Shown here in pieces: positions 4,798 through 52,489 of a DNA stretch of 64,000 nucleotides. Source of the stretch: Actinomyces massiliensis 4401292 (GTDB lineage Bacteria > Actinomycetota > Actinomycetes > Actinomycetales > Actinomycetaceae); assembly GCF_000269805.1 (NCBI RefSeq), contig NZ_JH711481.1, positions 410,051 to 474,050 on the forward strand, read 5' to 3'. Position numbers and translations under genes: made by a program. Position 1 is the first letter of the stretch. Each line of letters begins with the position of its first letter. The notes beneath the pieces were generated by a model, which was not told the origin of the DNA, made no database searches, and saw only the letters and a list, made by a program, of their open reading frames with translations.

Positions 4798-5886
<1,089 letters not shown>

Positions 5887-5969
5887 TCAGAGTCGCACAG
5901 AGGCCGCCTTTGCCGGGACCGCGATCGCGCACCGGGCCAGACGACCGGGGCTAACGGGACAATGGGCCC

Positions 5970-6659
5970 ATGAACGGACACGCGAGCACGCCCCCACGGC
6001 TCACCGGCGCGGCACCCGACCTCCTGAACCGGCTCATCGACGCCGCCGTGCGGCTGACGAAGCAGGCCGAGTCCGGTCGCGCCGTCGTCGGCATCACCGG
6101 GGCGCCGGGGGCTGGCAAGTCCACACTCGCCGCCGAACTGGAGACGGCACTGAGACGGCGGGGCCTGCTGGCCGGGAGCGTGCCCATGGACGGATTCCAC
6201 TTCTCCAACGCGGTCCTCGACGAACTCGGCCGTCACCAGCGCAAAGGTGCACCGGACACCTTCGACGTCGACGGCTATCTGGCAATCCTGGACCGGGTGC
6301 GTCAGGCCGCTCCGGAGGGCGAACCCCGCGAGGTCCTGGCGCCGGTGTACCGGCGCGATCTGCACGAGCCGGTGGCGGCAGGCACTCGCGTCGCGGGCCG
6401 CGGGATCGTCGTGACCGAGGGCAACTACTTGGCGCTGAATTCACTGGGCTGGGAGGGTGCCCGGGAGCGGATCGATCTGCTCATCATGGTGGAGGTGGAC
6501 GAGGCCGAGCTCATTCGGCGCCTGGTGGCGCGGCACATGTCCTTCGGGCGGCATCGGGCCGATGCCGGGCACTGGGTGCGCGCCGTCGATCTGCCCAACG
6601 CCCGGCTGGTGGCGGACTGCGCGAACCGCTGCGACGAGGTATGGCGGATCGGCCGATAG
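5970..6659 (+). CDS. P-loop nucleoside/nucleotide kinase family protein
   Basis: 229 residues. Walker A GITGAPGAGKST lies at about residues 43-54; a uridine/pantothenate-kinase-like PMDGFHFSNAVLDELGRHQRKGAPDTFDVDGYL motif follows, then VVTEGNYLAL, a typical substrate-site strand. This matches the PanK/URK-like 'nucleoside/nucleotide kinase family' (including FrcK-like proteins). The natural substrate is not readable. It starts 197 bp from divergent nrdF and is followed closely by acetolactate decarboxylase. Confidence 0.85.
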   Translation: MNGHASTPPRLTGAAPDLLNRLIDAAVRLTKQAESGRAVVGITGAPGAGKSTLAAELETALRRRGLLAGSVPMDGFHFSNAVLDELGRHQRKGAPDTFDVDGYLAILDRVRQAAPEGEPREVLAPVYRRDLHEPVAAGTRVAGRGIVVTEGNYLALNSLGWEGARERIDLLIMVEVDEAELIRRLVARHMSFGRHRADAGHWVRAVDLPNARLVADCANRCDEVWRIGR

Positions 6660-6718
6660 CGCCAGAGCCCACCTGTCAACACCGCTTCATGCCAATGCGA
6701 CTGCCTTACCCTGGACGC

Positions 6719-7453
6719 ATGACGTCTTCGCGGTCGCATACCGTCACCCGCCACCAGATCTTCCAGACCAGCCTCATCACGGCCCTGGCCCAGGGAGTCT
6801 ATGAGGATGAGATGACGCTGGCCGAACTGCTGGGGCACGGCTCCTTCGGAATCGGCACCTTCAACGGACTCGACGGGGAGATGGTGATCCTGGGCGGCAC
6901 CTGCTACCGGCTGCGCGGCGACGGCTCCGTGAGCGTGCCGGACCTGGGCGAGCGCACGCCGTACGCCGTCGTGACGAACTTCGTGCCGACCCTCCGCCAA
7001 GACGTGGACGGCGGACTCAGTCGCCAGGAGTTCTCAGAGATCATCGACACTCTCGTACCGAGCTCGAACTACATGTACGCACTGCGGCTGACGGGCCGCT
7101 TCGCATGGGCAAGCGCCCGGACCGTCGTCAAGCAGGAGCGCCCCTATCGGCCTCTGATCGAGGCCACCGGCGGCGAAGAGGTGGTCCGGCACGAGGACTT
7201 CGAGGGAACCGTCGCCGGTTTTCGCACGCCCCTGTATGAGCAGGGGATCTCCGTGGCCGGCTGCCACGCCCACGTCATTGACGAGGACCGCAGCTGGGGC
7301 GGCCATCTTGTGGACTTCGAACTGACCCGGGGCGTCGCGGAGCTCTGCCTGGGCACCGACTTCCGGCTGAGACTGCCACTGACCGAGGAGTTCGAAGAGG
7401 CGGATCTGAGCGAGGATATGAGCGAGGAGCTCCGGCAAGCCGAGCATCACTGA
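6719..7453 (+). CDS. budA: alpha-acetolactate decarboxylase
   Basis: 244 residues. It converts (S)-2-acetolactate to (R)-acetoin, diverting pyruvate into neutral products. Family signatures: ITALAQGVYEDEMTLAELLGHGSFGIGTFNGLDGEMV, the Glu-rich barrel, and the Zn site GCHAHVIDEDRSWGGH (His-x-His plus a later His) near residues 178-193. The start at 6719 gives the standard N terminus; an ATG 33 bases upstream is possible, and no strong ribosome site helps choose. No acetolactate synthase gene accompanies it here. Confidence 0.92.
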   Translation: MTSSRSHTVTRHQIFQTSLITALAQGVYEDEMTLAELLGHGSFGIGTFNGLDGEMVILGGTCYRLRGDGSVSVPDLGERTPYAVVTNFVPTLRQDVDGGLSRQEFSEIIDTLVPSSNYMYALRLTGRFAWASARTVVKQERPYRPLIEATGGEEVVRHEDFEGTVAGFRTPLYEQGISVAGCHAHVIDEDRSWGGHLVDFELTRGVAELCLGTDFRLRLPLTEEFEEADLSEDMSEELRQAEHH

Positions 7454-7502
7454 GCCGGGCCGCACCGGCGGCGTCATCCGCATCAGCACGATCACCGGGA
7501 CC

Positions 7503-10087
7503 TCACCACCCCCGTCCCCAGCCGCCCCCTCCCATCGTCGAGGTTGGCATCCCGAGCACCCGCCAGCCCGGAATCGTCGTCGTGGTTCGCCCATCCGTCC
7601 CGGCATGCTCCTGGACCCCGGCATGCTCCTGGACATGGTCCTGCACCCGCCATTTTCCGGGCAGGCCGACCGCCAGCCGGGCGCGGTGCGCGCCCGCCGC
7701 CAGAGGCATGAGCTTGACCACGCCGACGAGCCACGCCAGCAGCGGCAGACCCATGAGAATCATCGCGGCCGCATCGGGTGCACCGCCCGTCGGCAAGAGC
7801 AGCCACCACAGGACCGCCGTCTCACCCATGATCAGGAAGAAGGACGCCGGCTTGGCGCTTCCGTCAACAGCCCACCAGGCCGCGAGCGCGCTTCCGCTGC
7901 TGTCGCCGTCCTGGCCACGGGCCCCCGGCCAGATCCAGGGACCGCATGCCTCCCGCGCCCAGCTCATCAGGGCGCGTCTCAGCCGGGCGTCATAGCCGAC
8001 GTCCCGCAGGAAGGAGAGCGACCCGCCGATCATCATGAGTCCCCCCAGCACCGCCACGAGAACGCCGAGAATCCACCCTTGCCCTGCCCCGAGCCGAGTG
8101 ACTGCCAGAGCGAACAGCAGCAGGCCGGCGTGGAGGGGGAGCCAACCGCCCGAGGAACTGCGATGGCGGTCGGCGGCCAGGCGGCTGAGCCGTTCAACGG
8201 CCACCCCGCACTCCCATGGCGTGACGACACCCGTCGATGCGGCAGAGGTGACCGCGGACCATGCCCCCGGTCCGGCGATGAGAGCCTCATCGGGCGCCTC
8301 CAGCACCGCCGTCGAGCCCAGCGCGGACAAGGACGATAGCGACGATAACGGAACCCCGGTATCGCCGATGACCACGAGGCCGTCAGCGCCGACGCGCGCC
8401 AGGCCATCTGCCAGAAGCTCATGCTCCAGGCGCCCGATCCGCCGCCCCCAGCGCAGACGCCCCAGCACCGTGAACGCCCAGACGCCCAGGCCGGTGGCGA
8501 GCAGGAGGCCGAGCTCGACGTACCCGAGCCCCCAGGAGCGAAGGGTGGCGACAGTCAAGAAGCGAACGGAGCGTCCCAGGCTCGCCGGCGTCTCCCCCGC
8601 CGAGCAGCCCACAATAAGGACGCCGACGGTCAGGAGGATGAGTATCCACAGCCCCATCCCCCACAGGCCCGCACGAACCGACTGATGACGGACGCGGCGC
8701 CACAGCCCTTCCCGTATCCACGCCGGCAGCGTCGAGTCATGGGCCGGGTGGAGGCGGCAGGAGTCGGCCCAGGCCCTCAGCGCCCGCAGGTGCAGCCGCT
8801 CGGCGACGGCGCCGTCGATGAATGCCGGCAGCTCCGAGCCGAGGATGGCGGTCCCCAGGAGCGCGGCTGTGGCGCTGAGGAGCACCGGCGTCGCAGTGCG
8901 CCAGGCGAGGGCGTCGCCACTGACCCAGGGCCTGGCGCCGACATAGAGGATCATGGCGGCGGTGAACAGGACGCCGACATCGAAGGCGCGCTGACCGTAA
9001 CGGGCCACGGCGCGCGCCGAATCCAGCAGGTTGGCCAGTGCGGTCCTCGCCCGGATCACGTCCCCGACTGCACCTTCCCGAGACCGCCCCGCCCACGAGG
9101 TGCCGGGGCCGGCGATGTCCGCGGCGGCCTTGGGCAGGAGGGCCACCTGGGTGTCCAGGAGCGTGACATCGACGAGTCCGGAGCGGTTGGGGCGAGTCCT
9201 CGTACCGGCGAAACGGGCGCATACCGCTCCGGCACCGCCGGAGCGCGGCATCACCGGCTCATCCTTCGGCAGCACCATGGGGTCGTCGGTGAACCGCTGG
9301 GCGAGATTCCAGGGGTCGGCTTCCAGGCCCGTCAGCCCGATGAGGGAGCGGACGCGCCTGAGCCGCATTGATAGCACAATATTACTGAGCAGGCCGCCGA
9401 GGACGACGCCGAGCACCAGGACCGTCCCCACCAGGCGCGCGCTGTCCTGGAAGGGGCCGGCGCATAGGCGCGCACAAGGGACGTCACGACCGAGGGTGCC
9501 AGGACCGCCCACACCAGGCCGGGCAGGCGGCGGGGCAGTGCGGCTCGCAACCACTGGCCGATAGCGGACGGGCCGCCGCGGCGGACGGCATCGTCATCGG
9601 GAGCGCCCGTTCCGATCGAGGAGGTCCGCGGACCCCCATGATGGTCCCCGGATCGCCGGGGCATTGGGGCGCTGCGCGCCCAGACGGCGGCGGCGCGCAC
9701 GTGAACGCGGCTCGACTTCCACTGCCAGTAACTGACGTAGAGGGCGATGAGGCAGGCGAGAATCAGAACAATGAGAAGCGGAAGGGAGCCGGTGGCGGGG
9801 TCGTCGTCAATCACGGCGAGGACCTGAATGCCCGTCATGAGAAGGATCAGCGGAGTGAAGACCTCGCGTATGAGCGGGAGGGCCGCTGGGCGGTGAAGGA
9901 AGGCGGCGGAGAGCATCTCGACGGCGACTTCGGCTCTCCACGGAGCGCATTCGGCTTGCTGGGTCGGGGTCGGGCCATCGAGGTACGGGGTACTCAGGGG
10001 CGTACCACCGGGATGGATGGAACCGTTGTTCGCGACAGTGGGCCGATCGACATAGGGGCGGGGAATGTCGGCGGCGGTGATGCTCAT
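7503..10087 (-). pseudogene. large multi-pass membrane protein, frameshifted
   Basis: Two overlapping minus-strand reading frames, 9332-10087 and 7503-9554, are two parts of one protein of about 861 residues. The first frame gives a TM-rich N terminus up to LVRAYAPAP; the second resumes at FQDSARLVGTVLVLGVVLGGLLSNIVLSMRLRRVRSLIG. Restoring one base in the G run at 9453-9456 joins them as APAPFQDSARLVG. About ten to twelve hydrophobic segments are seen, with a long soluble middle. I do not recognise the family. Either a sequencing error in the homopolymer or a real or phase-variable frameshift would explain this; the ORF is otherwise intact. Confidence 0.7.
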
Positions 10088-37526: not shown

Positions 37527-38813
37527 ATGCCAATGACGACATCCTTCACCCGCGGCGTGCGCTACCCGGCGCCGGATGTGTCCCGCGGCTTCATGCTGCT
37601 ACTCGTCGCGGTGGCGAACGTGCCCGCCTGGACCGGAGCAGACGGGCGCTTGACCCAGGGCGGTCTCCAGGCGCTGTCCGCGCACCTGTCGACGGCGGAC
37701 TCCGTATGGATCTTCATCCGCACCCTCCTGGTGGACGAGCGAGCCATTCCGCTGTTCGCCATGCTCTTCGGCTTCGGTCTGGCCACCATGATCAACCGGC
37801 GCATCAAAACCGGCACGCAGACATATCTGCAAACGCTGCCGGGCACCGCGGAGGGGCGCGAACCGACGCCGGCAGAACTGGCCTGGGCACGCGAGCAGGC
37901 CACGGTCGACGCCCGCCGCCTGGTGCGCCGTCGCGGCTGGTGGATGATCCTGTTCGGCGCCGTGCACGGCATCTTCTTCCCCGGTGACATCATCGGCGCC
38001 TACGGAGTGGTCGCGGTCGTCTTCGCGGGCTGGTTGGCCCGCAAGCACCGCAAACGCATTCTCGCCGCAGGCATCACCTTCGCAATCCTGGCCACGCTCT
38101 TCATGTACTCGTTCGGCCTATGGCAAACCGGCGCGATGAGCCGTACTCCGGGAGCGGACTCGTCCACCTCAGGCAGTCTGCCCTGGTTCATCGGCAACCT
38201 GACCGGCTGGGTATTCACCCTCATGATCACGCTGCTCTCAATGGTCATCCCCGCCATGTTCATCGGGGCTCGTCTGGCCGACACCGACCTACTGGCCCAC
38301 CCCGAGCAGCACCGCCGCCTCCTGATACCCGTCGCCGTGGCCGGACTGGGAATCGGCATCCTGGGCGGACTCCACGCCGGACTCGCATATGCTGGATGGG
38401 GAGTCCCCATGTCCTCCCTGGACCCGGCCGCCACCGCAATAACCGGTCTAGCGGCCGGCTGCGGCTGGCTGGCACTCCTCGCCCTCTACGCCGGCGGACC
38501 CGCACCAGACGGACAACTCACCGGGCTGCGCCGCCTCGCCTCCGCCGTCGGACGCCGCTCCATGACCGCCTATCTCAGCCAAACCATCCTCTTCGGACTC
38601 ACCTTCACCGTCGTCCCCGGACTCCTCGGCACCGCCCTCGCAGTCAACGAAGCCCCAGCAGCCGCCATCGCCGTCGGAGTGTGGACCCTCGCCGCCGCCT
38701 TCTGCATCACCCTCGAACACGGCGGGCACGCCGGTCCCTTCGAAACCCTCCTACGCACCGCCGTCGCCCGCAGCCAACGCAACCACCCCCACCCACCACC
38801 GCCCCAGGCATAG
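37527..38813 (+). CDS. DUF418 domain membrane protein
   Basis: 428 residues, about nine to ten transmembrane helices. Typical opening RYPAPDVSRGFMLLLVAVANVPAW, FAMLFGFGLATMINRR, RRRGWWMILFGAVHGIFFPGDIIGAYGVVAVVFAGWLARK, and the C-terminal DUF418 segment LRRLASAVGRRSMTAYLSQTILFGLTF. DUF418 proteins are acyltransferase-like membrane proteins (YeiB/YxaH), function unproven. A second Met lies two codons in; the first is kept. Confidence 0.85.
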   Translation: MPMTTSFTRGVRYPAPDVSRGFMLLLVAVANVPAWTGADGRLTQGGLQALSAHLSTADSVWIFIRTLLVDERAIPLFAMLFGFGLATMINRRIKTGTQTYLQTLPGTAEGREPTPAELAWAREQATVDARRLVRRRGWWMILFGAVHGIFFPGDIIGAYGVVAVVFAGWLARKHRKRILAAGITFAILATLFMYSFGLWQTGAMSRTPGADSSTSGSLPWFIGNLTGWVFTLMITLLSMVIPAMFIGARLADTDLLAHPEQHRRLLIPVAVAGLGIGILGGLHAGLAYAGWGVPMSSLDPAATAITGLAAGCGWLALLALYAGGPAPDGQLTGLRRLASAVGRRSMTAYLSQTILFGLTFTVVPGLLGTALAVNEAPAAAIAVGVWTLAAAFCITLEHGGHAGPFETLLRTAVARSQRNHPHPPPPQA

Positions 38814-39137: not shown

Positions 39138-40376
39138 TCAGGCGGAAGGCTGGAGCTGCCGTCGTGTCCCGTCCACATGCGTCCCGATCCACTCAGCGAC
39201 AGGTGACGGCATGCGATCCCCCGCACCATCGCCCCAGGCATCGCCAAAACGTTCAAGGACCTCATCGACAACGTCGAGAACATCCTCGTCTCCAACGCGA
39301 AGCAGGTCCTGGAGTCGTGCGAAATGCTCGCGCGAAACCTCGGAGAGCCTCGTGGCACCAAGGAAGGGCAGCCCGAGTTCAAGGTTGTCTGAATGAGGCA
39401 GATATACGGCGGTGCATACGAGATCGTATGCGGGCGAGAGCCGGGCCCGCATACGGTCGGGGTAGATGAACGACCAATTCTTGAGATGGGCGTCGCCATT
39501 TCCGACAAGCAGGTTGAAGACGGTGCGCCTCACCATCTCCCGCAGGGAGTCGTGGTCCTGTCCACGGTAGGCGAGGGCCGCGAGGGTCTTGACCGTGGAC
39601 TTGTACTTGCCGTCCCCAGAGCCGAAGCGCCCGAGGACCTGCGCGAAGTCCTCAATGTGTACCCGGCCTCTCGCTTGACCTCCCGCCGTCCGGTCAAAGC
39701 GTCGCACCATGTAGGCCTCGGTCTCATCGGAGGGCCAGGCGCCTTCTCCGAGATCACCTACCTGATCGCGCTGCACCATCCGAGTTTCAGGCACCTCAAT
39801 GCCGACCTCATGCGCCAGTCTCATCACGGCGAGCTCGTTGGCCGGCAGCCCCGGGAAAGCGGCGTCGGGAATCTTGACAATCCAGTCACCGCCCTCACCG
39901 TGCGCGGGGAGCACGATCCTGTCCCCATCCTGCCGCATAGAGAATTTCATTCCCATTCCGGCCAGGGAGAAGCGCATGCGACCAGCCGCTCTCGACACGG
40001 GTGCCGACGCTTCGACTGAGGCACTGAAATCCGCCTCAACATGTGCGTGCTGATCCGGAACGACCTCAACCGCCCCGGGTAGATCATTTCCTATTCGCAC
40101 GAGAAGCTCGATCTCCCGGTATATGCTCACTCCTTGCTCGCGAGCAATAAGGTCCCGTAGCCGCCCCTCGGGAAGCAGATTGGAGAACCAGGCGGGCACA
40201 TGATTCGTCGCATGTGGCTGCCTGCGCGGATGATCCTCGAACCACCTGCCGAGAACGGCCCTGTCAGGACGATCCCAGTAGTCACTGTCGAAGATGAATT
40301 TTGTGAAGGCGTCTCGACGATGGATAGCGCCGACGTGCTCGCCGTAGAGTAGAACCGCATAGACCGCCTCGATCAT
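39138..40376 (-). CDS. hipA: HipA-like Ser/Thr kinase toxin (no HipB)
   Basis: 412 residues from ATG 40376, standard HipA length. N-subdomain 1 is present (VLLYGEHVGAIHRRDAFTKFIFDSDY, AWFSNLLPEGRLRDLIARE). Kinase features: SLAGMGMKFS (137-146, ATP loop), VKIPDA with Lys168, NGDAHLKN with Asp295/Asn300 (catalytic/metal), and AYDLV with Asp318. HipA kinases phosphorylate a translation factor (GltX in E. coli). The partner usually encoded upstream is the HTH antitoxin HipB; here it is a DUF262 gene ending 2 bp before this start, and no HTH gene is nearby. Confidence 0.88.
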   Translation of the reverse strand: MIEAVYAVLLYGEHVGAIHRRDAFTKFIFDSDYWDRPDRAVLGRWFEDHPRRQPHATNHVPAWFSNLLPEGRLRDLIAREQGVSIYREIELLVRIGNDLPGAVEVVPDQHAHVEADFSASVEASAPVSRAAGRMRFSLAGMGMKFSMRQDGDRIVLPAHGEGGDWIVKIPDAAFPGLPANELAVMRLAHEVGIEVPETRMVQRDQVGDLGEGAWPSDETEAYMVRRFDRTAGGQARGRVHIEDFAQVLGRFGSGDGKYKSTVKTLAALAYRGQDHDSLREMVRRTVFNLLVGNGDAHLKNWSFIYPDRMRARLSPAYDLVCTAVYLPHSDNLELGLPFLGATRLSEVSREHFARLQDLLRVGDEDVLDVVDEVLERFGDAWGDGAGDRMPSPVAEWIGTHVDGTRRQLQPSA

Positions 40377-40378
40377 GG

Positions 40379-42025
40379 TCAGGCACCTTTTAGCGTCTCT
40401 ACATCGCCACCATCGAAGATCCAATCATCAAGCGGGGGAGAGTCCTCATGTCCGCAGGCGGTGCGAGCCTTAATGAAGTCGATGAGGTAGTGGCGCAGCA
40501 CCTCGGCCCTGAGTTCAATCGCCTCGTCGTAACGATTGCCCTGCAGAAGGCTCAGGATCTCCCGGTTCAGAAGCAGGGAGTCGAGGTCGAAGTCGTCATC
40601 CAGAAGCGGGAGCAGCTGGCGCCGATCCAGAACGGAGATCACTTTGTTCGCAGCGACGAAGGCATCCGCACCCAGCGCAGTGGGCGGGACAAGATCGGCG
40701 GCTACGGCTCGTGGAGTCGTCTCCCCCTCCAGCTGCGCGGCCAGCGCCTCCACCGTCATCGGCTCCCCCGTATCGGGATCGACCGGCTTCCGGTTCCACA
40801 TCGCGGTGAGAATAACCTTACTGTCCGAGCGCGTCGCTCTGAACACACTGAGGTCGGGCACCTGCGGCCCGTGTGTCAAGGTCGCCTCGCTGAGAAGCCT
40901 TTGGACCGACTCCGACTCCTCACCGGGGACGATGCGTGCCGCCATATCGCGCAGATCGGTCTGAGACCCATTGATGCCGAGCTCGTCAGCACCGATACTC
41001 GTACGCCAGAACCAGCGGCGAAGCAGCTCGAGATTACGGTCATGAGGCTCGGGGAAGAAAGCGAAGAGTCTCGCCAGGACGAGCAGCTGGAAGCGGAAGG
41101 GCAGGAAGGTCATGTGCGGAACGCCGCACTGCTGCTGAAGGAAGCGCACGGCGGCCACGAGCGCCCGCTCTGTGGCCATATAGGCCTCCTTCTCGCTCTC
41201 ACCGGGGAAGTCACTCACAAGACTGCGGCTAGGAGAGAATTCCCCATGAACATCTCGACTAATATCCGTATGGCGACGCACCAAGAGCGCTTGTACGACG
41301 ACCTTGTCCGCGAGTGCGCCGAAATGGGTCTGCTCATCCACGTGCGCAGCGATCCCCGACATCGTCAAAGCCGCATCCGGACCGCCATGAATGGCGTCGA
41401 ATATTTCTGCGGCATTGAGCTTCTTACCGCGATTATTTATCCTGTCGAAGACCTCGCGGAGAACCTGCTCGTCGGCGTCCTCCATAATCGTGGCGGGTAC
41501 CGAGACGCCTGCGAGTCGACCCGTGACCTTCTGGATATGAGGGGCGAACCCAGCCCCATCAGGATTATCCCCCAGCCACGCCAGCGCCCGCCCGAGATCG
41601 AACAGATCGGGCAAGGGAATAACGAGGGGCGGGTCGGGCTCACGGAGCGGCACGACCTTCTGCTCCCTGAGGGAGTAGCCGAGAGCGAATCGAGGGTCGC
41701 GCACGCCTTCAGGATCAACAACATTGACGAGGCTCGTAATCCGCTGCTGGCCATCCACAACCCACAGAGCATCCGGCATCTGCCCCGCCTCGATGTCCAA
41801 CGTCCCGATCCTCAGGCGCGCGGCCCCGGCTTCACGCTTCCAGAGGAGCAGACTGCCAATTGGATACCCGCGAAGTACCGAGTCAACAAGATTGAGAACG
41901 TCCCGCCTCTCCCATCGAAACGATCGCTGGAACTGCGGCACTCGCAGCTGCCCAGCCTTTACAAGTGCCCGCAATCCCGCGATGCTGTAGCTCTGACTGG
42001 TCGAGAGTGCCTGCGGTTCGTCCAT
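40379..42025 (-). CDS. DUF262 domain protein (ParB-like NTPase fold), HipA partner
   Basis: 548 residues. DUF262 motifs: VPQFQRSFRW (29-38), RGYPIGSLLLWK (52-63) and WVVDGQQRITSL (88-99); the DGQQR box binds nucleotide in DndB- and GmrS-type proteins. REVFDRINNRGKKLNAAEIFDA follows near 190-211. The C-terminal half is helical and ends NRYDEAIELRAEVLRHYLIDFIKA; I see no HNH motif of DUF1524, so it is not a full GmrSD nuclease. ATG 42025; tight coupling to hipA (2-bp gap) makes a two-gene operon. Tandem repeats lie at its promoter. Confidence 0.85.
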   Translation of the reverse strand: MDEPQALSTSQSYSIAGLRALVKAGQLRVPQFQRSFRWERRDVLNLVDSVLRGYPIGSLLLWKREAGAARLRIGTLDIEAGQMPDALWVVDGQQRITSLVNVVDPEGVRDPRFALGYSLREQKVVPLREPDPPLVIPLPDLFDLGRALAWLGDNPDGAGFAPHIQKVTGRLAGVSVPATIMEDADEQVLREVFDRINNRGKKLNAAEIFDAIHGGPDAALTMSGIAAHVDEQTHFGALADKVVVQALLVRRHTDISRDVHGEFSPSRSLVSDFPGESEKEAYMATERALVAAVRFLQQQCGVPHMTFLPFRFQLLVLARLFAFFPEPHDRNLELLRRWFWRTSIGADELGINGSQTDLRDMAARIVPGEESESVQRLLSEATLTHGPQVPDLSVFRATRSDSKVILTAMWNRKPVDPDTGEPMTVEALAAQLEGETTPRAVAADLVPPTALGADAFVAANKVISVLDRRQLLPLLDDDFDLDSLLLNREILSLLQGNRYDEAIELRAEVLRHYLIDFIKARTACGHEDSPPLDDWIFDGGDVETLKGA

Positions 42026-42043
42026 ATGCCGATTATGCCCGTC

Positions 42044-42245: not shown

Positions 42246-43910
42246 TCAGCACTCCACGACGTTGACGGCCAGGCCGCCGCGGGAGGTCTCCTTGTACTTG
42301 GCGAGCATGTCCTCACCGGTCTGACGCATAGTCTCGATGACGGTGTCCAGGGACACCGCGTGACGCCCCTCGCCCCACAGCGCCATGCGAGCAGCATTGA
42401 TCGCCTTGACGGCCGCCACCGCATTGCGCTCGATGCAGGGGATCTGCACGAGCCCGCCGACCGGGTCGCACGTCAGCCCCAGGTTGTGCTCCATGGCGAT
42501 CTCGGCGGCGTTCTCCACCTGCGCAGGCGTCCCGCCCAGGGCCTCCGCCAGCCCGGCCGCCGCCATGGACGACGCCGCCCCCACCTCCCCCTGGCAGCCC
42601 ACCTCCGCCCCGGCGATCGAGGCATTGGTCTTGATGAGAGACCCCACCGCGGTGGCGGCCAGCAGGAAGCGGCGCACCCCGTCGTCGTCGGCCCCGGGGA
42701 TGAAGCGCTCGTAGTAGGCCATAACGGCGGGGACGATCCCCGCGGCCCCGTTGGTCGGGGCGGTGACCACCCGCCGACCGGCGGCGTTCTCCTCGTTGAC
42801 GGCCAGGGCGAACAGGTCCACCCAGTCCATGCCGCGCAGCGGGTCGGCCATGGCGAAGGCGGCGGCCGGTCCTGACTGCGCGAGCAGCCGCTCATGCAGC
42901 GCCTTGGCCCGCCGCCGCACCCCCAGTCCCCCGGGAAGCGTGCCCTCAGCCGCCATACCGGCCTCGATGCAGGCGTTCATGGTGTCGCGCAGGCGGTCGA
43001 GATAGGCGAGCACCTCCTCGCGGGGCCGAGCAGAGATCTCATTGGCCATGACCACCTCCGAGACTCGACGCCCCTCGCACGCGCACACCGCCAGAAGGTC
43101 GGCCCCCGAGGAGAAGGGGTAGGGCGCCGGCGTGGCGTGCATTTCAGCCGAGGCCGCAGTCGCCAGAGCGCGGATCGACGGCGCGCCGGGAGCCCCGACG
43201 TCCTCCATGACGAAGCCGCCTCCCACAGAGTAGTAGGTGCGGCGCAGCACCTCCGCGCCGGTGGCGCAGTAGGCGGTGATGGTCAACGCGTTCGGGTGGT
43301 AAGGCAGAACCCGCCCGGGCAGGAAGAGGATGTCCGTGGTCGGGTTGAAGGGCAGCGCCCCGACGCCGTCGACCACGAGCTCTCCGGCCGCGGTCACCTT
43401 CTCGTGCAGGCCCTCGCATACCTCCGCCGGGACGGTCTCGGGCTCGTAGCCGGCCAGGCCCATGACGACGGCGCGATCGGTGGCGTGACCGCGACCGGTC
43501 GCCCCCAGCGAGCCGTAGAGCTCGACGGTCAGGCGGGTGACGGGCGCAGTGCCCCCAGCATGGTCATGCTGGTCAGGGCGCGCCGCGACGGCGATGACGT
43601 CGGCCAGCGCACCGGCGAAGGCGCCCCCGGCCCGCATGGGTCCGACCGTATGGGATGACGACGGCCCGATGCCGATGCGCATGAGGTCGAAGACGCTCAA
43701 CGGCCGCGATGCCCGCCGCGCGGTGACCTCACCGGCCATCAGGGCCGCAGGGGTTGCGGAATCCAGAGCAGCGGAGATGAGCGTCGTGTCTCCGTCATCG
43801 GCGGCGGCCACGGCTGAGATCCCTGATATCCCAGACGACGTCGGCGGCTCGGCCGACCGGCCGCGCGCAGTCCCGACCGGCCCGGCTTCCGCGAGATCAC
43901 GAATGGTCAT
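42246..43910 (-). CDS. sdaA: L-serine ammonia-lyase (Fe-S dehydratase)
   Basis: About 554 residues. Single-chain L-serine deaminase: N-terminal SDH_beta part ([30 protein letters not shown]) and C-terminal SDH_alpha part with the Fe-S Cys residues in [32 protein letters not shown]. It converts L-serine to pyruvate and ammonia. The first ~70 residues (Ala/Ser-rich) are extra relative to typical SdaA; an internal start at [19 protein letters not shown] (about 43735) is plausible. ATG 43910 is the upstream choice, without a strong ribosome site. Confidence 0.9.
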
Positions 43911-44044
43911 GACGCCATGATGCACCGGTTCGGGTCATGAATCCCACAGACCGCGCACAATCCGTCCCGTCGCCGTCTGCACCGTCTGCGGCTCCCGGCC
44001 GGGCCCTGAGGAGCCGCAGCCGGGAACCGGAGACTATTGACAGG

Positions 44045-46347: not shown

Positions 46348-49300
46348 CTAGGCGCTCGTATCGCCGGAGCCGTCAGGACGACTGCCCTGACCGCCGAGAT
46401 CGGGTGCGCCTTCAGCAGCGTGCCGGGCACGAGAGACCCGAGTAACCGACCCGGTCGCCTCGGGCTCGGCAACCCGAACCCCAGTCCCAGTCGTGACCTC
46501 AGGCTCAGCCACCCGTCTCCCGGCCCCAGTCGTCGCCCTCGGCTCTGCAGCTACGCGCCTCCCGGCCCCAGTGGCCGTCCCAGGCTCGGCGACCCGCCTC
46601 CCGGCCCCGGTCGTGGCCATGGGCTCAGCCACCCGAACCCCAGTCCCAGTCGTGACCTCAGGCTCAGCGACCCGCCTCCCGGCCCCAGTGGTCGCCTCGG
46701 GCTCGACGGCCGCCCTGACGGCCCTGGCCCTCCGGGACGGCCGATCGCCGTCGAACAGGACGACGGCCAGCTGGGAGTCGTCACCGGCCGGGGAGTTGGT
46801 CACCATGGCGGCGCCCCCGACATGCTCCTCGAGAGTCTGGAGCATCTTCATGGGGGTGGCCAGGAGGAGCTGGAAGCCGAAGCCGCGGAAGACATCCAGG
46901 CCGGCGCGCGTGAACTCGGCGTCCGTCTTGTCGAAGGCCTCGTCGAGGACGACCAGCGCGTAACCGGGAACCGCCTGTCCCGGCTCGGTGAGCTGGTAGC
47001 GCAATGCGGCCGCCAGGCAGAAGACGACGAGTTTCTGGCGCTGCCCGCCCGACAGCCCTGCGGCGCCCTCGTAATAGTCGACGGCGACGCCGGAGGCATC
47101 GCGCTCCACGGCGGTGAAGGAGACGTGCAGGCGGGTGTCGAGGCACTGACGCCTCCACGACTCGTCGCGGGGGTCGGAAGAGCCCAGGCGCGTCATGACG
47201 GAGTTGAGGACGGCGAAGCGCTCCTCGGCCTCCTCGGTGGTCTCGTCGGCCAGATCGAGGCTCCCGGCGGCGATGGTGGCCAGGTCCGACAGGAAGTCGT
47301 GGACGATGGGCAGCCGCCGCTCGGCCACCTCGATATGCAGGTGATGACCGGGCGAGTACTCGGTGGCGCGCAGGGCGTCGTTGACCGGGCCGATACGGCT
47401 CCTGACCTGGCTGACGGCGCGGCGCACCTCACCGGCGAGCCGGCCGATGTTCTGACGGGACTGGTTGTGCAGGAGCTCGGCGAAACGGCGCTCGAACCGG
47501 GGCAGGCTATCCGTCTGAAGGCGGTTCAACAGCTCGAGGTAGTCGCCCAGGAAGGCGGCCTCCGGACGCACCCCGCTGCTCGGGATGGGCCAGCGCTCGG
47601 AGAATCGCACCATGATGGCGCGGGCCTCGCCCAGTCCGCGGCTCTCGGCCTGCGAGGCGCGCTGGTTGTCGTAGGCGATCTGCTGCTCGACCTCGCGGGC
47701 GGCGATGTCCACCTCCGCCAGCCCCGCGTGACGACGCCGCGTCCGGAATCGCTGCTCCAGCTCGGCGAAGAGAGCCTCCCGCTCGGCCTCGCCCAGGGCG
47801 AGCCAGCGGGAACCGTGCTCGGATGCGCCGGCATCGCCGGGACCGAGCCCGTCAGTCCCGTCCGCGCCGTCGCGCACGCGGCCCTCATCAGCCCTCTCCT
47901 GGCGCCGACGGGCGATCCCGGCCAGTGCGGCCTCGGCATCCTCCAGCCGCGAGCGCTGGACCTGCTCCTCCCCCGCGAGCCGGAGAACCGCATCCCGGGC
48001 CTTGTCCTCGGCCAGGCCCGCGGCCGCGGCGCGCGATTCGAGCTCGGCCAGCCCCGGCAGCGCATGCGCAGCGCGCTCCCGCTGCGCAGCCAGATCGGCC
48101 TCACGAGCCCTGGCGCCATCGACGTCGAGCTCCTCCCACGAGGTCTCCAGAATGCGCAGGCACGCGTCACGACGCTCCCGGCCGACGGCGCGGGCACGGT
48201 CCAGTGCGGCGAGCTCGCCGCCGATGTCCTCCAGACGGGCGGTCACCTCCCGGCCCTCGGCGATGACCTGCTCGAGGCGCTCGGCCGGGTCGACGCCGAC
48301 CGTCCAGTTGCGCGAGTCGGTCAAGTCCCGACGATCGTCCTTGAGGTGACTGGTGCGCGAGGACTTGACCTGCCCGGCACGGGTGACCCCCCGGTCCAGG
48401 CCGACCAGGTCGCGCGCATCCTCGACGCAGTCGTGATCGAAACGGCGCATGATCTCGGCGTCGAGCCACGCGGCGTGCTCCGAGCCCGGTTTGGGGCGGA
48501 TGCGACGGGCCAGCGCATCGGCGGTCACGGGGCGGGCGGAGCGCGGCGCGGCGGCCATCCGCTCGTAGGCGAGGCGGGCGCGCAGACGCTTGGCATCGAC
48601 GGCGTCGGCGACCTTCCGGTAGAGGTGCTCCGGAACGAGCATGGTGCGGGCGAAGGGGGCCACGACAGTCTCGACGGCGACCCGCCACTCCTCCTGCCCG
48701 GGGACGAGCTCGAGAACCTCCCCGGCGAAGGGCAGGGCGGCAGGCGCCTGCCCGACGGCGTGGGCGATGGAGTCCCGGGCCCGCAGCAGATCCGTGCTCA
48801 TGGCCGAGCGCGAGGCGGTGATCTGCTCGGCGCGCTCGCGCAGCTCACGGCTGCGCTCCTCCAGGGCGATCTGCTCGGCGCGCAGCGCACTGCGGGCCTG
48901 ATCCTGCTCGTCCTCGGCGCGCTCGGCGCGCTCGATCTCCTGCTCCGCCGTGCGCCGCAGCTCGGCGAAGGCGGCGCCCTCACTGGGCGTGGAGGCGCCC
49001 AGGACTCCCAGCTGGGAGTCGAGGAGTTCCCGCGCCCGCGCAATGCGCTCGGCGGTCCGGCGGGCCGCCTCCAGGCGGGCGTCGAGAGCGGGCAGGCTCT
49101 CACCGATGCCCCCCGCCAGAGCCAGGCGCGCGGCCTCCCGCTCACGGCGAGCGTCCTCCTCGACCCGACGGGCGGCTGCGAGCTCATCGGCGAGACGATC
49201 CAGGGCGCGCCGGGCCGTGTCGGCGGTCTGCTCGTGAAGGGTCGTCTTGAGCTGTTCGAGATAGGGGTCGATGGCGGCGCGCAGCTGTTCAGTGCGCTCC

Positions 49301-50166
49301 TGGTCGCGGCGGGCCGCGGTGATGCGCTCCTCCAGGCGGCGCAGCGGGGAGAGCAGGGCCTCCTGATTGCGCGCCTCGACGACGGAGGAGTGAGCCTCGC
49401 GCAGTTCGGCGAACTGCTCGACGGCCGCCGCCGCCATGGCGAAGGTTTCCGGCTCATCGAGCATGAAGTCGCGCAGGAGGGTATCGAGGCTCGTGAGGTT
49501 CTTGGCGGACTGGGTCCGGTGGAGCAGGCGCTGGGCGACCTCACCGGACAGGCCGAGGCGCCGTCGGAAGCGGGCCGCGAAGGCCTCGTAGCGCTCGAAG
49601 CGGGTGGCGCGCCCCTTCAGATCGCGGCTGAGGGCGCGCTTGTCGATGCCGTTGACCAGATACTCCATGAGCTCGGTCAGGGCGATATCCCCCTCCACGA
49701 GGAGCTGGGTCTGGGTAATGGAGTCGTCCGACGTCGAGCCCTGCCTGGCGTGATAGAGCGTGACGAGGGTGATCGTCTCCTCGGGGCGCAGGCGCGTGAA
49801 GGTCAGGGCGATGCCGCTGCGGGTGGCGCGCGGACGGAGGTAGTCGGTGACGACCTCTCCGGTGATCTCGTCCGCGCTGCGCCGGTAGGCGCCGCGCACA
49901 TAGCTCAGCACGGAGCGGGAGCGGTCGGCCGTGGAGGATGATTCTTGGGCCGCCGCGTTGAAGCGCAGGCTCTTGGCCGGCACGAGGACGGCGGACAGGG
50001 CGTCCAGCAGCGAGGACTTCCCCGAGCCCGAGGGTCCGGTGAGCAGGAGCCCGCTGCGCGGAACCGGCAGATCGTGGTGACCGGAGAACGTGCCCCAGTT
50101 GTAGACCTGGATGCGGGCCAGGCGGTGCTGGGAGGCGGTCTGCGGCGCGGTCGCCGAACTGGTCAT
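46348..50166 (-). CDS. jetC: JetC-like SMC/MksB-family ATPase of a Wadjet-type system
   Basis: 1272 residues. Walker A GPSGSGKSSL (44-53), two long coiled coils (about 270-480 and 650-880), ABC signature AGLSGGQRQKLVVFCLA near 1060 and Walker B ALVVLDEAFDKTDAEF. This matches the JetC component that, with JetA and JetB, clamps plasmid DNA. The last ~100 residues after LFDGDRPSRRAR are a seven-fold 13-residue tandem repeat (EPEATTGAGRRVA type). ATG overlaps jetB by 4 bp. JetD is not found downstream. Confidence 0.88.
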   Translation of the reverse strand: MTSSATAPQTASQHRLARIQVYNWGTFSGHHDLPVPRSGLLLTGPSGSGKSSLLDALSAVLVPAKSLRFNAAAQESSSTADRSRSVLSYVRGAYRRSADEITGEVVTDYLRPRATRSGIALTFTRLRPEETITLVTLYHARQGSTSDDSITQTQLLVEGDIALTELMEYLVNGIDKRALSRDLKGRATRFERYEAFAARFRRRLGLSGEVAQRLLHRTQSAKNLTSLDTLLRDFMLDEPETFAMAAAAVEQFAELREAHSSVVEARNQEALLSPLRRLEERITAARRDQERTEQLRAAIDPYLEQLKTTLHEQTADTARRALDRLADELAAARRVEEDARREREAARLALAGGIGESLPALDARLEAARRTAERIARARELLDSQLGVLGASTPSEGAAFAELRRTAEQEIERAERAEDEQDQARSALRAEQIALEERSRELRERAEQITASRSAMSTDLLRARDSIAHAVGQAPAALPFAGEVLELVPGQEEWRVAVETVVAPFARTMLVPEHLYRKVADAVDAKRLRARLAYERMAAAPRSARPVTADALARRIRPKPGSEHAAWLDAEIMRRFDHDCVEDARDLVGLDRGVTRAGQVKSSRTSHLKDDRRDLTDSRNWTVGVDPAERLEQVIAEGREVTARLEDIGGELAALDRARAVGRERRDACLRILETSWEELDVDGARAREADLAAQRERAAHALPGLAELESRAAAAGLAEDKARDAVLRLAGEEQVQRSRLEDAEAALAGIARRRQERADEGRVRDGADGTDGLGPGDAGASEHGSRWLALGEAEREALFAELEQRFRTRRRHAGLAEVDIAAREVEQQIAYDNQRASQAESRGLGEARAIMVRFSERWPIPSSGVRPEAAFLGDYLELLNRLQTDSLPRFERRFAELLHNQSRQNIGRLAGEVRRAVSQVRSRIGPVNDALRATEYSPGHHLHIEVAERRLPIVHDFLSDLATIAAGSLDLADETTEEAEERFAVLNSVMTRLGSSDPRDESWRRQCLDTRLHVSFTAVERDASGVAVDYYEGAAGLSGGQRQKLVVFCLAAALRYQLTEPGQAVPGYALVVLDEAFDKTDAEFTRAGLDVFRGFGFQLLLATPMKMLQTLEEHVGGAAMVTNSPAGDDSQLAVVLFDGDRPSRRARAVRAAVEPEATTGAGRRVAEPEVTTGTGVRVAEPMATTGAGRRVAEPGTATGAGRRVAAEPRATTGAGRRVAEPEVTTGTGVRVAEPEATGSVTRVSRARHAAEGAPDLGGQGSRPDGSGDTSA
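46440..46725 (-). repeat. seven-fold 39-bp tandem repeat in jetC 3' end
   Basis: In-frame DNA repeat encoding EPEATTGAGRRVA, EPEVTTGTGVRVA, EPMATTGAGRRVA, EPGTATGAGRRVA(A), EPRATTGAGRRVA, EPEVTTGTGVRVA and a degenerate last unit. Near-identical units (the EPEVTTGTGVRVA copies) show recent expansion. Confidence 0.85.
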
Positions 50167-51017
50167 GACTCGTCCCTCTCCTCCGATGAGTTGGCCACCG
50201 GATCACTGGCCGCCTCCGGAGAGGCCGGCCGCTCCTCCGCAGGCGCCCCCGCAGGTGCCCCGCCCTTTCCGGCATCGGCAGGCGCCCCGCCGCCGAGGAG
50301 TCCGCCCTCGGGGGCGCCGTTGCTCTCACTGCCCCCGCTGCTCTCACTGCCCTCACTGCTGTCACTACTGTCTCGGCCGTCCTCGCCGAGCAGACGGCGG
50401 TACTCAGCGGTCACTGCGGCGACCTCGTCGGCGGTGAAGACCAGGGCGAGCACCGGGGAGACCTCGTAGCGCTCGGCCACGTCGGTGTCGCGCAGAAGGG
50501 CGGCCCGCTTGAGCTTGTCAACCGAGGAGCTCACGCGGCGCATGAACCCCGTGTGATCGGTGGAGGTGTGCGGCCGGTAGACGGACAGGTGGTCGTCGAT
50601 CTCGCTGCGATCGACGAAGACGCGCTCGCCCGGCGTGTTCGCGCGCAGCAGCAGAGTGCGCAGGTGGAGCAGGAGGACGGTGTCGACGAGGGTCAGCCGC
50701 ATGGCGCGCATGACGGAGGGGGCCGCGCCGGTGGGGTCCGAGGCGTTGCGGGTGAAGGCCAGGCCCGCCGCGCGGTCGATGACGAGCTCGAGGAAGAGGT
50801 CGCCCAGCCGGCGGCGAATGTCGGCCTCGTCCTTCAGCAGGGCATTCCACAGCTCGGGGTGGAGCTCGGTGGTGAGGTAGGGCCCCTGGAGGAGGCGCAC
50901 GAGGGTGCGCCGGGTGTCCCGGGGCAGCGAGCCCGGGTCTCCGTCCCACAGCGCGCCGGGATTGGCGCCTCCGGTGTGATCCAGTCCGTCCTGAGCCGGT
51001 GCGGCATGGGAGCTCAT
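50163..51017 (-). CDS. jetB: JetB-like DUF4194 (MukE-like) subunit
   Basis: 284 residues. Core about 30-215: LLQGPYLTTELHPELWNALLKDEADIRRRLGDLFLELVIDRAAGLAF, LTLVDTVLLLHLRTLLLRAN and FMRRVSSSVDKLKRAALL, the winged-helix DUF4194 pattern. It bridges the kleisin JetA and the ATPase JetC. The C-terminal ~70 residues are low complexity (Ser/Asp/Glu/Gly, SSDSSEGSESSGGSES). Start overlaps the jetA stop by 4 bp. Confidence 0.88.
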   Translation of the reverse strand: MSSHAAPAQDGLDHTGGANPGALWDGDPGSLPRDTRRTLVRLLQGPYLTTELHPELWNALLKDEADIRRRLGDLFLELVIDRAAGLAFTRNASDPTGAAPSVMRAMRLTLVDTVLLLHLRTLLLRANTPGERVFVDRSEIDDHLSVYRPHTSTDHTGFMRRVSSSVDKLKRAALLRDTDVAERYEVSPVLALVFTADEVAAVTAEYRRLLGEDGRDSSDSSEGSESSGGSESNGAPEGGLLGGGAPADAGKGGAPAGAPAEERPASPEAASDPVANSSEERDES

Positions 51018-52489
51018 GCGTCTCCTGACTTCTCGGTGCGGTTGGTGAACAGGAACCGCGGTATGCGGGCCGAGCGCTCGGCTCCGCCGGCGGTCCTCCA
51101 GGTGACGGTCTCGTCGCCGGGGACCTCCTGGCCACGACGACGGGCGAGGAGCAGCAGGCCCACGACGCTGGCCAGCCCCTGAGTGGCAGGATGCGCGGCC
51201 AGGACCTCGGCGACAGTCGCCGCTCCCCGCTCCTCCAGGACCGCATCGACGGCGTCGATGAGCTCGACCAGGTCGATCTCGCTGGCGCGCACGACCCGGC
51301 GCACCTCCTCCAAGTCGAGGCGCGCGACCTCGCGGCTGTGGATCTTCTCGGTGACGACCGCGTCAGCGGGGTTGCGCATGCGCCAGGAGCCGATGGAGGC
51401 CATGTGGACGCCGGTGAGTGCAAGACCGAGGTCCATCTGCGTCTGCGGAGGCGTGCGCGCGGCGAGACGGGCGGCGAGACGCTGGGCCTCTGCGAGCTCG
51501 GCGCCCAGCCGGCGCTGGTCCTCGAAGGCGCGCGACCTCACGAAGTGCCTCAACGATCGGGACAGATCGTCCATGGTGCTGCGCACCGAGGTCGACTCCT
51601 GCGCGACAGCGGAGCGCCAGCGGCGCAGGAAGCGCAGCTCGGCGTCCTCCAGGCGGGTGGCGAATGCGCGGGCGAGGATCGTCTCCAAGTTCTCATCCAG
51701 GCGAGCGGAGGACTCGGAGTCCATGAGCAGCTCATGGAAACCGAGGAAGGAGCGGCCGGTCTCCGAGCTCTCGATGCGATCGACCCCGCGGAAGATGTCG
51801 TCGAGCACATCACCACGGGTGGCGTCCAAGGAGACGACATGCTCGCGCAGGGAGCGGTTGAGCGCCGCGATCTCGTTGCGGATTCGAGTGAAGTCCCCGG
51901 GGACCTGTTCGGCCAGGGCGAGGATCTCGGCGAGGCGCTCGGCGGCCTCCGGCCCGTCGAGCGGGACGAAGTCGCCGGCCTCGACCCGCGCGATCTCGGC
52001 GTCGAGAGCGTCGCGCTCGGCGCGCAGAGCCTCCAGACGCCCCGTGGCGGTGGGATCCGAGTCCCGGGCCAGGCGACTGACCTGCGTGGAGATGGTGTCC
52101 AGGCGCGACTGCGTGGCGACGGGACGAGGGCGCCCGCTGCGCACCAGGAAGCGGATGGCGGCCTCGGCCGGAGCGGACAGCTCGTAGGTCTCCCGTCGGG
52201 ATCCCGGCGTCGTGGCGCGCACGAGGACACCGGCTCTGCGCCACTGGTCGCAGTAGGCCCGACCCGCGCGCGATGCCGCTACGCCCGCATCACGCAGCGC
52301 CGCGAGGTCTTCGTCGACCAGCTCGTGAAGCTCGGCGACGGGACGGCGACGCACCTCTCCTCCCAGGTGCTCGGCGAGAATCGCTGCGGCCATCGGACCC
52401 AGATCGGCCCGGAGAAGAGCCAGCCCAGGATCCTTGCGCACCAGTCGCGTGAGCCTGAGCGCATCTGCAACGACTCTGCGGGTTCCCAC
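51014..52489 (-). CDS. jetA: JetA-like DUF3375 kleisin subunit
   Basis: 491 residues, usual DUF3375 length. N-terminal winged helix, a central coiled-coil region (RLEALRAERDALDAEIARVEAGDF; about 165-245), then DIFRGVDRIESSETGRSFLGFHELLMDSESSARLDENLETIL and a C-terminal winged helix. GTG 52489 with GGAGGTGAGC directly upstream. First gene of jetABC; promoter in the 136-bp gap to HxlR. Confidence 0.88.
   Translation of the reverse strand: MGTRRVVADALRLTRLVRKDPGLALLRADLGPMAAAILAEHLGGEVRRRPVAELHELVDEDLAALRDAGVAASRAGRAYCDQWRRAGVLVRATTPGSRRETYELSAPAEAAIRFLVRSGRPRPVATQSRLDTISTQVSRLARDSDPTATGRLEALRAERDALDAEIARVEAGDFVPLDGPEAAERLAEILALAEQVPGDFTRIRNEIAALNRSLREHVVSLDATRGDVLDDIFRGVDRIESSETGRSFLGFHELLMDSESSARLDENLETILARAFATRLEDAELRFLRRWRSAVAQESTSVRSTMDDLSRSLRHFVRSRAFEDQRRLGAELAEAQRLAARLAARTPPQTQMDLGLALTGVHMASIGSWRMRNPADAVVTEKIHSREVARLDLEEVRRVVRASEIDLVELIDAVDAVLEERGAATVAEVLAAHPATQGLASVVGLLLLARRRGQEVPGDETVTWRTAGGAERSARIPRFLFTNRTEKSGDA

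Follow-up and report, generated by a model that had tools for sequence, protein, structure and literature searches.

HipA is the founding persistence kinase, and its natural trigger is still debated. In the characterised HipA and HipT kinases, the component of translation that becomes phosphorylated is an aminoacyl-tRNA synthetase. While the Escherichia coli kinase is held by HipB, a helix-turn-helix (HTH) antitoxin, other arrangements have been described: in HipBST a separate HipS protein inhibits the kinase by altering its P-loop (PMC9325769), and HipAD (also DS-6, or PDC-M66 in PADLOC), a HipA-like kinase with a DUF3037 partner, is a validated anti-phage module in which deletion of the partner is toxic and the non-HipB partner neutralises the kinase (PMC13092281, PMC12548924; these and the following literature statements rest on excerpts of the cited papers). 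DUF262 proteins with a DGQQR motif are known from GmrSD, BrxU and SspE. In SspE the domain is a nucleoside triphosphatase (NTPase) switch (PMC10952713, PMC13251355), where, once DNA is recognised, GTP is hydrolysed at DGQQR and the nuclease becomes licensed (PMC13251355). Here I describe a locus in which the two protein families meet: a DUF262 gene followed directly by a hipA gene in a 64,000-nucleotide stretch of Actinomyces massiliensis 4401292 (contig NZ_JH711481.1, positions 410,051 to 474,050), hereafter the window. I would give even chances to the reading that the pair is a two-gene sensor-effector module, with a HipA kinase partnered by DUF262 instead of HipB.

Both genes lie on the minus strand. 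The first (40379..42025) encodes a DUF262 (GmrSD_N) protein of 548 amino acids, and the second (39138..40376) a HipA-family Ser/Thr kinase of 412 amino acids with an ATG start 2 bp after the DUF262 stop codon (gap 40377..40378); an alternative in-frame open reading frame (ORF) extends the kinase with a TTG start to 40424. HipA consists of a HipS-like N-terminal Couple_hipA domain (residues 7-105; 40062..40358; Pfam E 1.6e-18) and a HipA_C kinase domain (residues 136-381; 39234..39971; E 8.4e-48, 163.3 bits against a Pfam cut-off of 30.5). Its catalytic motifs are intact: the P-loop SLAGMGMK (residues 137-144; 39945..39968), whose S137 was equated by eye from the motif with the autophosphorylated S150 of E. 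coli HipA, the catalytic motif NGDAHLKN (residues 293-300; 39477..39500) and the metal-binding YDL (residues 317-319; 39420..39428). NCBIfam recovered the couple_hipA domain and no equivalog above cut-off, and a profile search returned HipT as the nearest solved kinase. The GmrSD_N domain covers DUF262 residues 24-212 (41390..41956; E 4.6e-26) and includes DGQQR (residues 91-95; 41741..41755), while the C-terminal part (residues 213-548; 40382..41389) matched neither DUF1524 nor any HTH family in Pfam. Coordinates, domains and motifs thus bear out an earlier note on this DNA, made from the letters alone, which had reported a complete HipA 2 bp behind a 548-residue DUF262 protein with DGQQR.

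Like HipBA of E. coli, the locus has a full-length kinase with N-subdomain, P-loop serine, catalytic and metal motifs, and a coupled partner gene directly upstream; unlike in HipBA, this partner is DUF262 rather than an HTH protein, and it is missing in three HipA lineages of the DUF262-paired family. A non-HipB partner is shared with HipAD, but the window HipA matches no PDC-M66 model (PDC-M03A models were its only PADLOC matches at E<=1) and its partner carries GmrSD_N, not DUF3037. HipS, the kinase inhibitor of HipBST, is kin of the N-terminal domain of the window HipA (PMC9325769). The DUF262 domain with DGQQR resembles GmrSD, BrxU and SspE, but no DUF1524 HNH domain is fused or adjacent, and the output would be a kinase instead of DNA cleavage. 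PADLOC PDC-M55 and Menshen (DUF262 with ATPase/OLD) likewise place a DUF262 protein that lacks DUF1524 next to an effector-type gene; here, however, the adjacent gene is a HipA kinase, and neither PDC-M55A/B nor NsnB adjoins the window pair. None of the ten Hip gene organisations in the main text of Gerdes (2021) has DUF262 (PMC8262856; its supplementary tables lie outside this statement). In the open-licence PMC literature, supplements outside, no description was found of PDC-M55 or of a DUF262-HipA pair, the one co-mention having HipA in its reference list only. Each half has precedents, HipA with partners other than HipB and DUF262 next to a range of effectors; their pairing is unreported in the literature searched.

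The neighbourhood search recovered 41 DUF262-HipA pairs (20 among 99 relatives, 18 in a class sample, one in a phylum sample and two on Azospirillum plasmids, one of which is typed conjugative), 40 of them adjacent and one split by contig ends. A chance or strain-specific pairing is ruled out by this spread across genus, class, phylum and plasmid samples, and the unusual pair proposed in the earlier note is not confined to this strain. A full-length DUF262 relative was present in 20 of the 99 genomes (own included), namely the own genome, 18 of the 48 others from the genus and one from another family (G091), and a HipA of the window's kind, whole or broken, adjoined it in all 20. Within the class sample (394 genomes, own included), DUF262 was found at 18 places in 17 other genomes (E<=3.3e-68; next match 8.4e-34) and HipA at 18 places in the same 17 (E<=2.9e-74; next match 2.0e-31), side by side in 17 of 18 cases; in G253 the DUF262 gene runs off one contig and HipA sits at the start of another. 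The phylum sample (396 genomes, overlapping the class sample) added the pair of G528. These genome searches scored the first candidates per genome (three for profile A1, four for the HipA profile A2), and weaker copies may be missed; among plasmids, 8 of 54 records with DUF262 matches were read. A scan of genome contigs with a single protein gave two loci, and the nearest named DUF262 relatives belong to Actinomyces israelii and Actinomyces sp. oral taxon 448. Of the 41 paired DUF262 rows, 39 have DGQQR (L189 and L192 carry variants); with six other plasmid DUF262 proteins included, the count is 43 of 47.

Two individual loci stood out in this survey. G150 holds two pairs (L174, L191) from different branches of the family. 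In L077 (G036:C12:240000-254000, 5214-8053, minus strand), most of DUF262 is 85-97% identical at the DNA level to L075, the DUF262 tail and HipA are nearer to L074 and L078 (~78-93%), and identity to L075 resumes past HipA, as if the pair were a recombinant in which the HipA cassette had been exchanged.

At the loci of related kinases, the position that DUF262 occupies here is taken by an HTH gene. The window HipA matched 334 plasmid records by tblastn, six of which were read, and among the 25 matches listed were rhizobial HipAs with 38-40% identity. All five annotated rhizobial loci that were read had an HTH-regulator gene (~197 codons) directly upstream, overlapping HipA by 8 bp, with an alignment covering 92-97% of the window HipA; the two upstream proteins tested by Pfam both match HTH_3. 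A sixth, unannotated record (Microvirga) has a matching ORF at the position of the upstream gene. Around the window pair, a profile of six rhizobial HipB proteins found nothing at E<=1 among ORFs of at least 50 amino acids within 3 kb, in line with the absence of a flanking HTH antitoxin gene noted earlier. No adjacent HipB was found in 47 stretches (41 pairs in 42 stretches plus five HipAs without DUF262, hereafter solo HipAs), one of which has a profile match that lies ~2.8 kb off. A HipB acting in trans was rejected for rhizobial-HipB-like proteins, to which this check extended (an unrelated HTH protein in trans lies beyond its reach): the window's genome gave only weak matches, the best at E 1.5e-4. 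A HipB-like HTH fold in the DUF262 C terminus, which the earlier note had named as a finding that would speak against its idea, was likewise rejected at the level of Pfam families and solved structures: no Pfam HTH family appeared at E<=1 in 20 of 20 HipA-paired DUF262 members scanned (of 41 pairs), and solved structures match profile positions 14-103 at most.

The DUF262 protein itself belongs among defence-type relatives. Its best PADLOC match is the candidate-defence protein PDC-M55C (E 5.8e-47, aligned residues 180-520), followed by HEC-05 and then Menshen NsnA at 2.2e-12. Four plasmid DUF262 proteins of 525-565 residues without a HipA neighbour match PDC-M55C at 3e-58 to 3e-125. These four have different surroundings, in one record each: they adjoin PDC-M55A/B matches (Paracoccus), a putAbiC/AbiP-like gene (Klebsiella) or a DUF5677 gene (Rhizobium), or lie two genes before an HNH gene (Paraburkholderia); for the Arthrobacter and Nonomuraea plasmid loci no named partner was found. 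Because an HTH gene fills the same slot in rhizobial operons and plasmid DUF262 kin adjoin defence-type genes, a regulator or sensor joined to an effector is the best reading of the pair. DUF262 is also known without DUF1524 from Menshen and from Dazbog, where it likely reads methylated DNA (PMC10952713), and ptuXYZ combines a protein of this kind with an ATPase and an RNase-type toxin (PMC11980606).

Natural losses of either gene were then considered. HipA is recurrently broken: in 7 of 41 pairs it is disrupted while DUF262 remains open (G029, G005, G018 and G021 in the genus; G263, G355 and G134 in the class), the breaks being taken as the assemblies, some of them drafts, give them. An internal stop in DUF262 was found in none of the 41 pairs, and one DUF262 is cut by a contig end. 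In one of the broken copies (L073 of G021, ~6200-6874, minus strand), HipA retains its first ~85 residues and, judged by eye, a short tail, with the kinase core gone and DUF262 open. Conversely, HipA occurs in five genomes that gave no DUF262 match at E<=1e-3 (G015, G028, G038, G051 and G022, the HipA of G022 being broken). The four whole solo HipAs require three changes on the HipA tree, which can be read as losses of DUF262 in three HipA lineages. The first DUF262 codons persist directly upstream of HipA in G051 as a deletion scar. In the HipAs of G015, G028 and G022 the P-loop serine position is alanine; in E. coli HipA this serine is autophosphorylated and has been termed essential (PMC6581861), and S150A abolishes growth arrest (PMC3376134). 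Broken copies (L067, L069, L071, L073, L175, L183, L184 and L088) did not enter the HipA tree or the residue tests, apart from two pieces of L088 in the P-loop test and the test of 58 invariant positions given below, and residue test B excluded the three most divergent pairs (L190-L192).

Conservation of one HipA domain is lost where DUF262 is missing. Compared with 15 whole paired Actinomyces HipAs, the four solo HipAs depart 31 times from positions that are otherwise invariant; 390 control sets, each made up of a sister pair and two further paired HipAs drawn from the same 15, average 10.2 such changes and reach 22 at most. Residues 1-105 account for 22 of the 31 changes in the solos (controls: mean 5.6, maximum 17), or 20 without two start-codon positions, as the position 1 changes in L086 and L087 stem from trimming longer ORFs. 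Residues 106-412 hold nine changes, compared with a control mean of 10.7 and 274 of 390 sets reaching nine. The domain split was conceived after the deviations had been seen, so that the 0/390 for the N-terminal domain is descriptive only, and three lineages make a small sample; the solo HipAs were among the control sets' reference rows in the whole-protein test but not in the domain-split test. I95 is changed in all four solos and P37 and E80 in three of four, while 1.3% of control sets reach three positions changed in three or more members. I read this pattern to mean that, without DUF262, the surface of the HipS-like domain that faces it has been freed from constraint, while the rest of the protein is still held. 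This domain is also a plausible control point because HipS inhibits the kinase in HipBST.

How such a module might work can be sketched as follows. The pair would probably have a promoter to itself immediately ahead of the DUF262 gene, and translation of HipA would be coupled to that of DUF262. DUF262 would act on HipA via the N-terminal HipS-like domain, and that it holds the kinase off until a trigger arrives appears somewhat likelier than an obligatory switch-on. I favour the inhibitor form on three grounds: the P-loop serine is changed in one solo lineage, HipA is often broken, and HipAD offers a precedent. If SspE, GmrSD, BrxU and Dazbog are a guide, the trigger would be DNA that is modified or foreign, detected by NTP hydrolysis at DGQQR; the freed kinase would then phosphorylate a translation component, with growth arrest and abortive infection as the outcome. 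In its full form, which I put forward tentatively and at less than even confidence, the module would represent a further organisation of Hip genes: a DUF262 NTPase, standing in for HipB as both antitoxin and sensor, would grip the HipS-like domain, read modified or foreign DNA by NTP hydrolysis and release a translation-stopping kinase. If true, a type IV restriction sensor would be joined to a persistence kinase as one abortive-infection switch, in Actinomycetota and on alphaproteobacterial plasmids. A DUF262 partner, being a sensing/NTPase domain in SspE, makes the question of the HipA trigger concrete, in that foreign or modified DNA may be that trigger. The natural losses of either gene, together with the loss of conservation in one HipA domain, indicate a candidate interaction surface, and the distribution of the pair suggests a widespread candidate alarm-and-shutdown module.

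Several findings weigh against this proposal. The solo HipAs of G038 and G051 (L086 and L087) keep all 58 positions that are invariant in 31 paired HipAs, and their pairwise ratio of non-synonymous to synonymous substitution rates (dN/dS) against paired relatives is 0.17-0.23, like that of paired HipAs (all dN/dS values here are simple pairwise estimates, with synonymous sites near saturation in some pairs). These sound-looking kinases speak against the inhibitor form, as loss of DUF262 was apparently tolerated alongside them. DUF262 stays open without a whole HipA in the seven pairs listed above and has a low dN/dS in two of them (0.13-0.15), so that it may have work of its own. A single clade of DUF262-paired HipAs apart from the HTH-paired ones was neither shown nor rejected by the HipA tree (approximately unbiased test, p 0.27), and I95 alone is weak, since a position at which all four members differ occurs in 1.5% of control sets as well. 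Neighbours of the other pairs, among those listed, look by eye mostly housekeeping, metabolic or regulatory, and none of 44 viral-contig DUF262 loci has the paired HipA within its stored flanks. A phage-borne system was rejected on that count and on a scan of the viral contigs with the HipA profile (A2), which found none; four phage records have partial DUF262 matches. Of the roles that the earlier note had proposed for DUF262, sensor or antitoxin, that of a regulator or sensor stands as the best reading, given the exchange with HTH in the slot and the defence-type kin, whereas the simple antitoxin holds only in part: the P-loop alanine in one solo lineage favours it, and two solo lineages with intact motifs, one behind a DUF262 deletion scar, do not.

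In the strongest alternative, HipA is inactive by default and DUF262 binds it and switches it on after a trigger; the pair would then not be addictive, and the loss of one gene or the other would do no harm. Three separate HipA lineages without DUF262, two of them with intact motifs, and the remnant of first DUF262 codons before one solo HipA speak for this model. Pairwise dN/dS also rises to 0.36-0.66 within the solo clade of G015, G028 and G022 (L084, L085 and L088), compared with 0.125-0.28 between paired HipAs, which together with the one broken gene looks as if HipA loses value without DUF262; the rise reached significance with one control pair (p 0.012 and 0.004), whereas with a second it did not (p 0.12 and 0.22). 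However, the P-loop alanine is found in all three genomes of this very clade, as if the kinase had been disarmed, and seven broken HipAs against no DUF262 lost by stop or frameshift is the pattern of a costly toxin. I regard switching-on by DUF262 as a possible but doubtful account.

A kinase held by DUF262 is also to be set against an improbable second alternative, namely that the defence is mainly the work of DUF262, as a nuclease or NTPase directed at foreign DNA, with HipA as an accessory that adjusts DUF262 by phosphorylating it. It would account for DUF262 being open in 41 of 41 pairs (one cut by a contig end) with HipA broken in seven, and for DUF262 dN/dS not being clearly raised when one HipA is broken (0.13-0.33, compared with 0.11-0.30 when both are whole); moreover, PtuX, a DUF262 protein without DUF1524, has been read as a ParB/Srx-type nuclease (PMC11980606). 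Yet in the Pfam scan of 20 HipA-paired DUF262 members, DUF1524 was found in none, nor any nuclease family besides GmrSD_N itself, and the rhizobial HipA kin have an HTH partner instead. That the two genes are a plain regulatory pair for growth or stress control, settled in the chromosome, is the least probable of all, for although 14 of 18 other Actinomyces pairs share their stretch with an sdaA or amylosucrase-like gene and neighbours elsewhere look mostly metabolic by eye, the pair is carried by only 19 of 49 genomes of the genus sample, adjoins a resolvase on the conjugative plasmid p5, has Fic/Doc and AbiEii genes nearby in G528, and includes a DUF262 protein with defence-type kin.

Expression signals of the proposed sensor-effector module were sought in the upstream regions. 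A -10-like element, GGCATAAT (42032..42039, minus strand), lies 7-14 nt before the DUF262 ATG and is the best conserved stretch among the 60 nt upstream of 19 Actinomyces DUF262 starts; it looks like the promoter of a leaderless transcript. A weaker GTGTCGG-like stretch at -29 to -23 of the Actinomyces starts is not clear in the window, and the solo HipA of G028 has a similar -10-like stretch immediately before the gene. The junction between DUF262 and HipA in 19 relatives is a 4-bp overlap in 15; of the other four, three have the genes 2, 2 and 7 bp apart and one has them overlapping by 8 bp.

The surroundings of the pairs were characterised by a PADLOC scan of four window genes and a Pfam scan of ten neighbours picked by eye. 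Upstream of the window pair lies sdaA (42246-43925), whose protein has no PADLOC match at E<=0.001, and downstream a convergent DUF418-like gene (37527-38813), both identified by eye without a search. Outside the window, the same genome holds another HipA_C match, interrupted by a stop codon and close to a weak HTH match (E 0.2), at G000:C1:799269-800004 (L089), perhaps a decayed ordinary hipBA, as well as a distant second DUF262 match (L090, G000:C1:1054690-1054872; E 5.6e-5) in an open frame of 377 amino acids, which by its length is another subfamily. Hints of mobility or defence around the pairs are scarce; besides the resolvase of p5 and the Fic/Doc and AbiEii genes of G528, they comprise a Wadjet-type anti-plasmid locus in the window (46348-52489, minus strand), whose JetC gene (PADLOC JetC1, E 0) lies ~4.3 kb from the pair. 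No JetD was seen directly downstream of JetC, where an amylosucrase-like gene is found, and upstream are two overlapping ORFs placed like JetB and JetA, names that were taken from gene order and not from a search.

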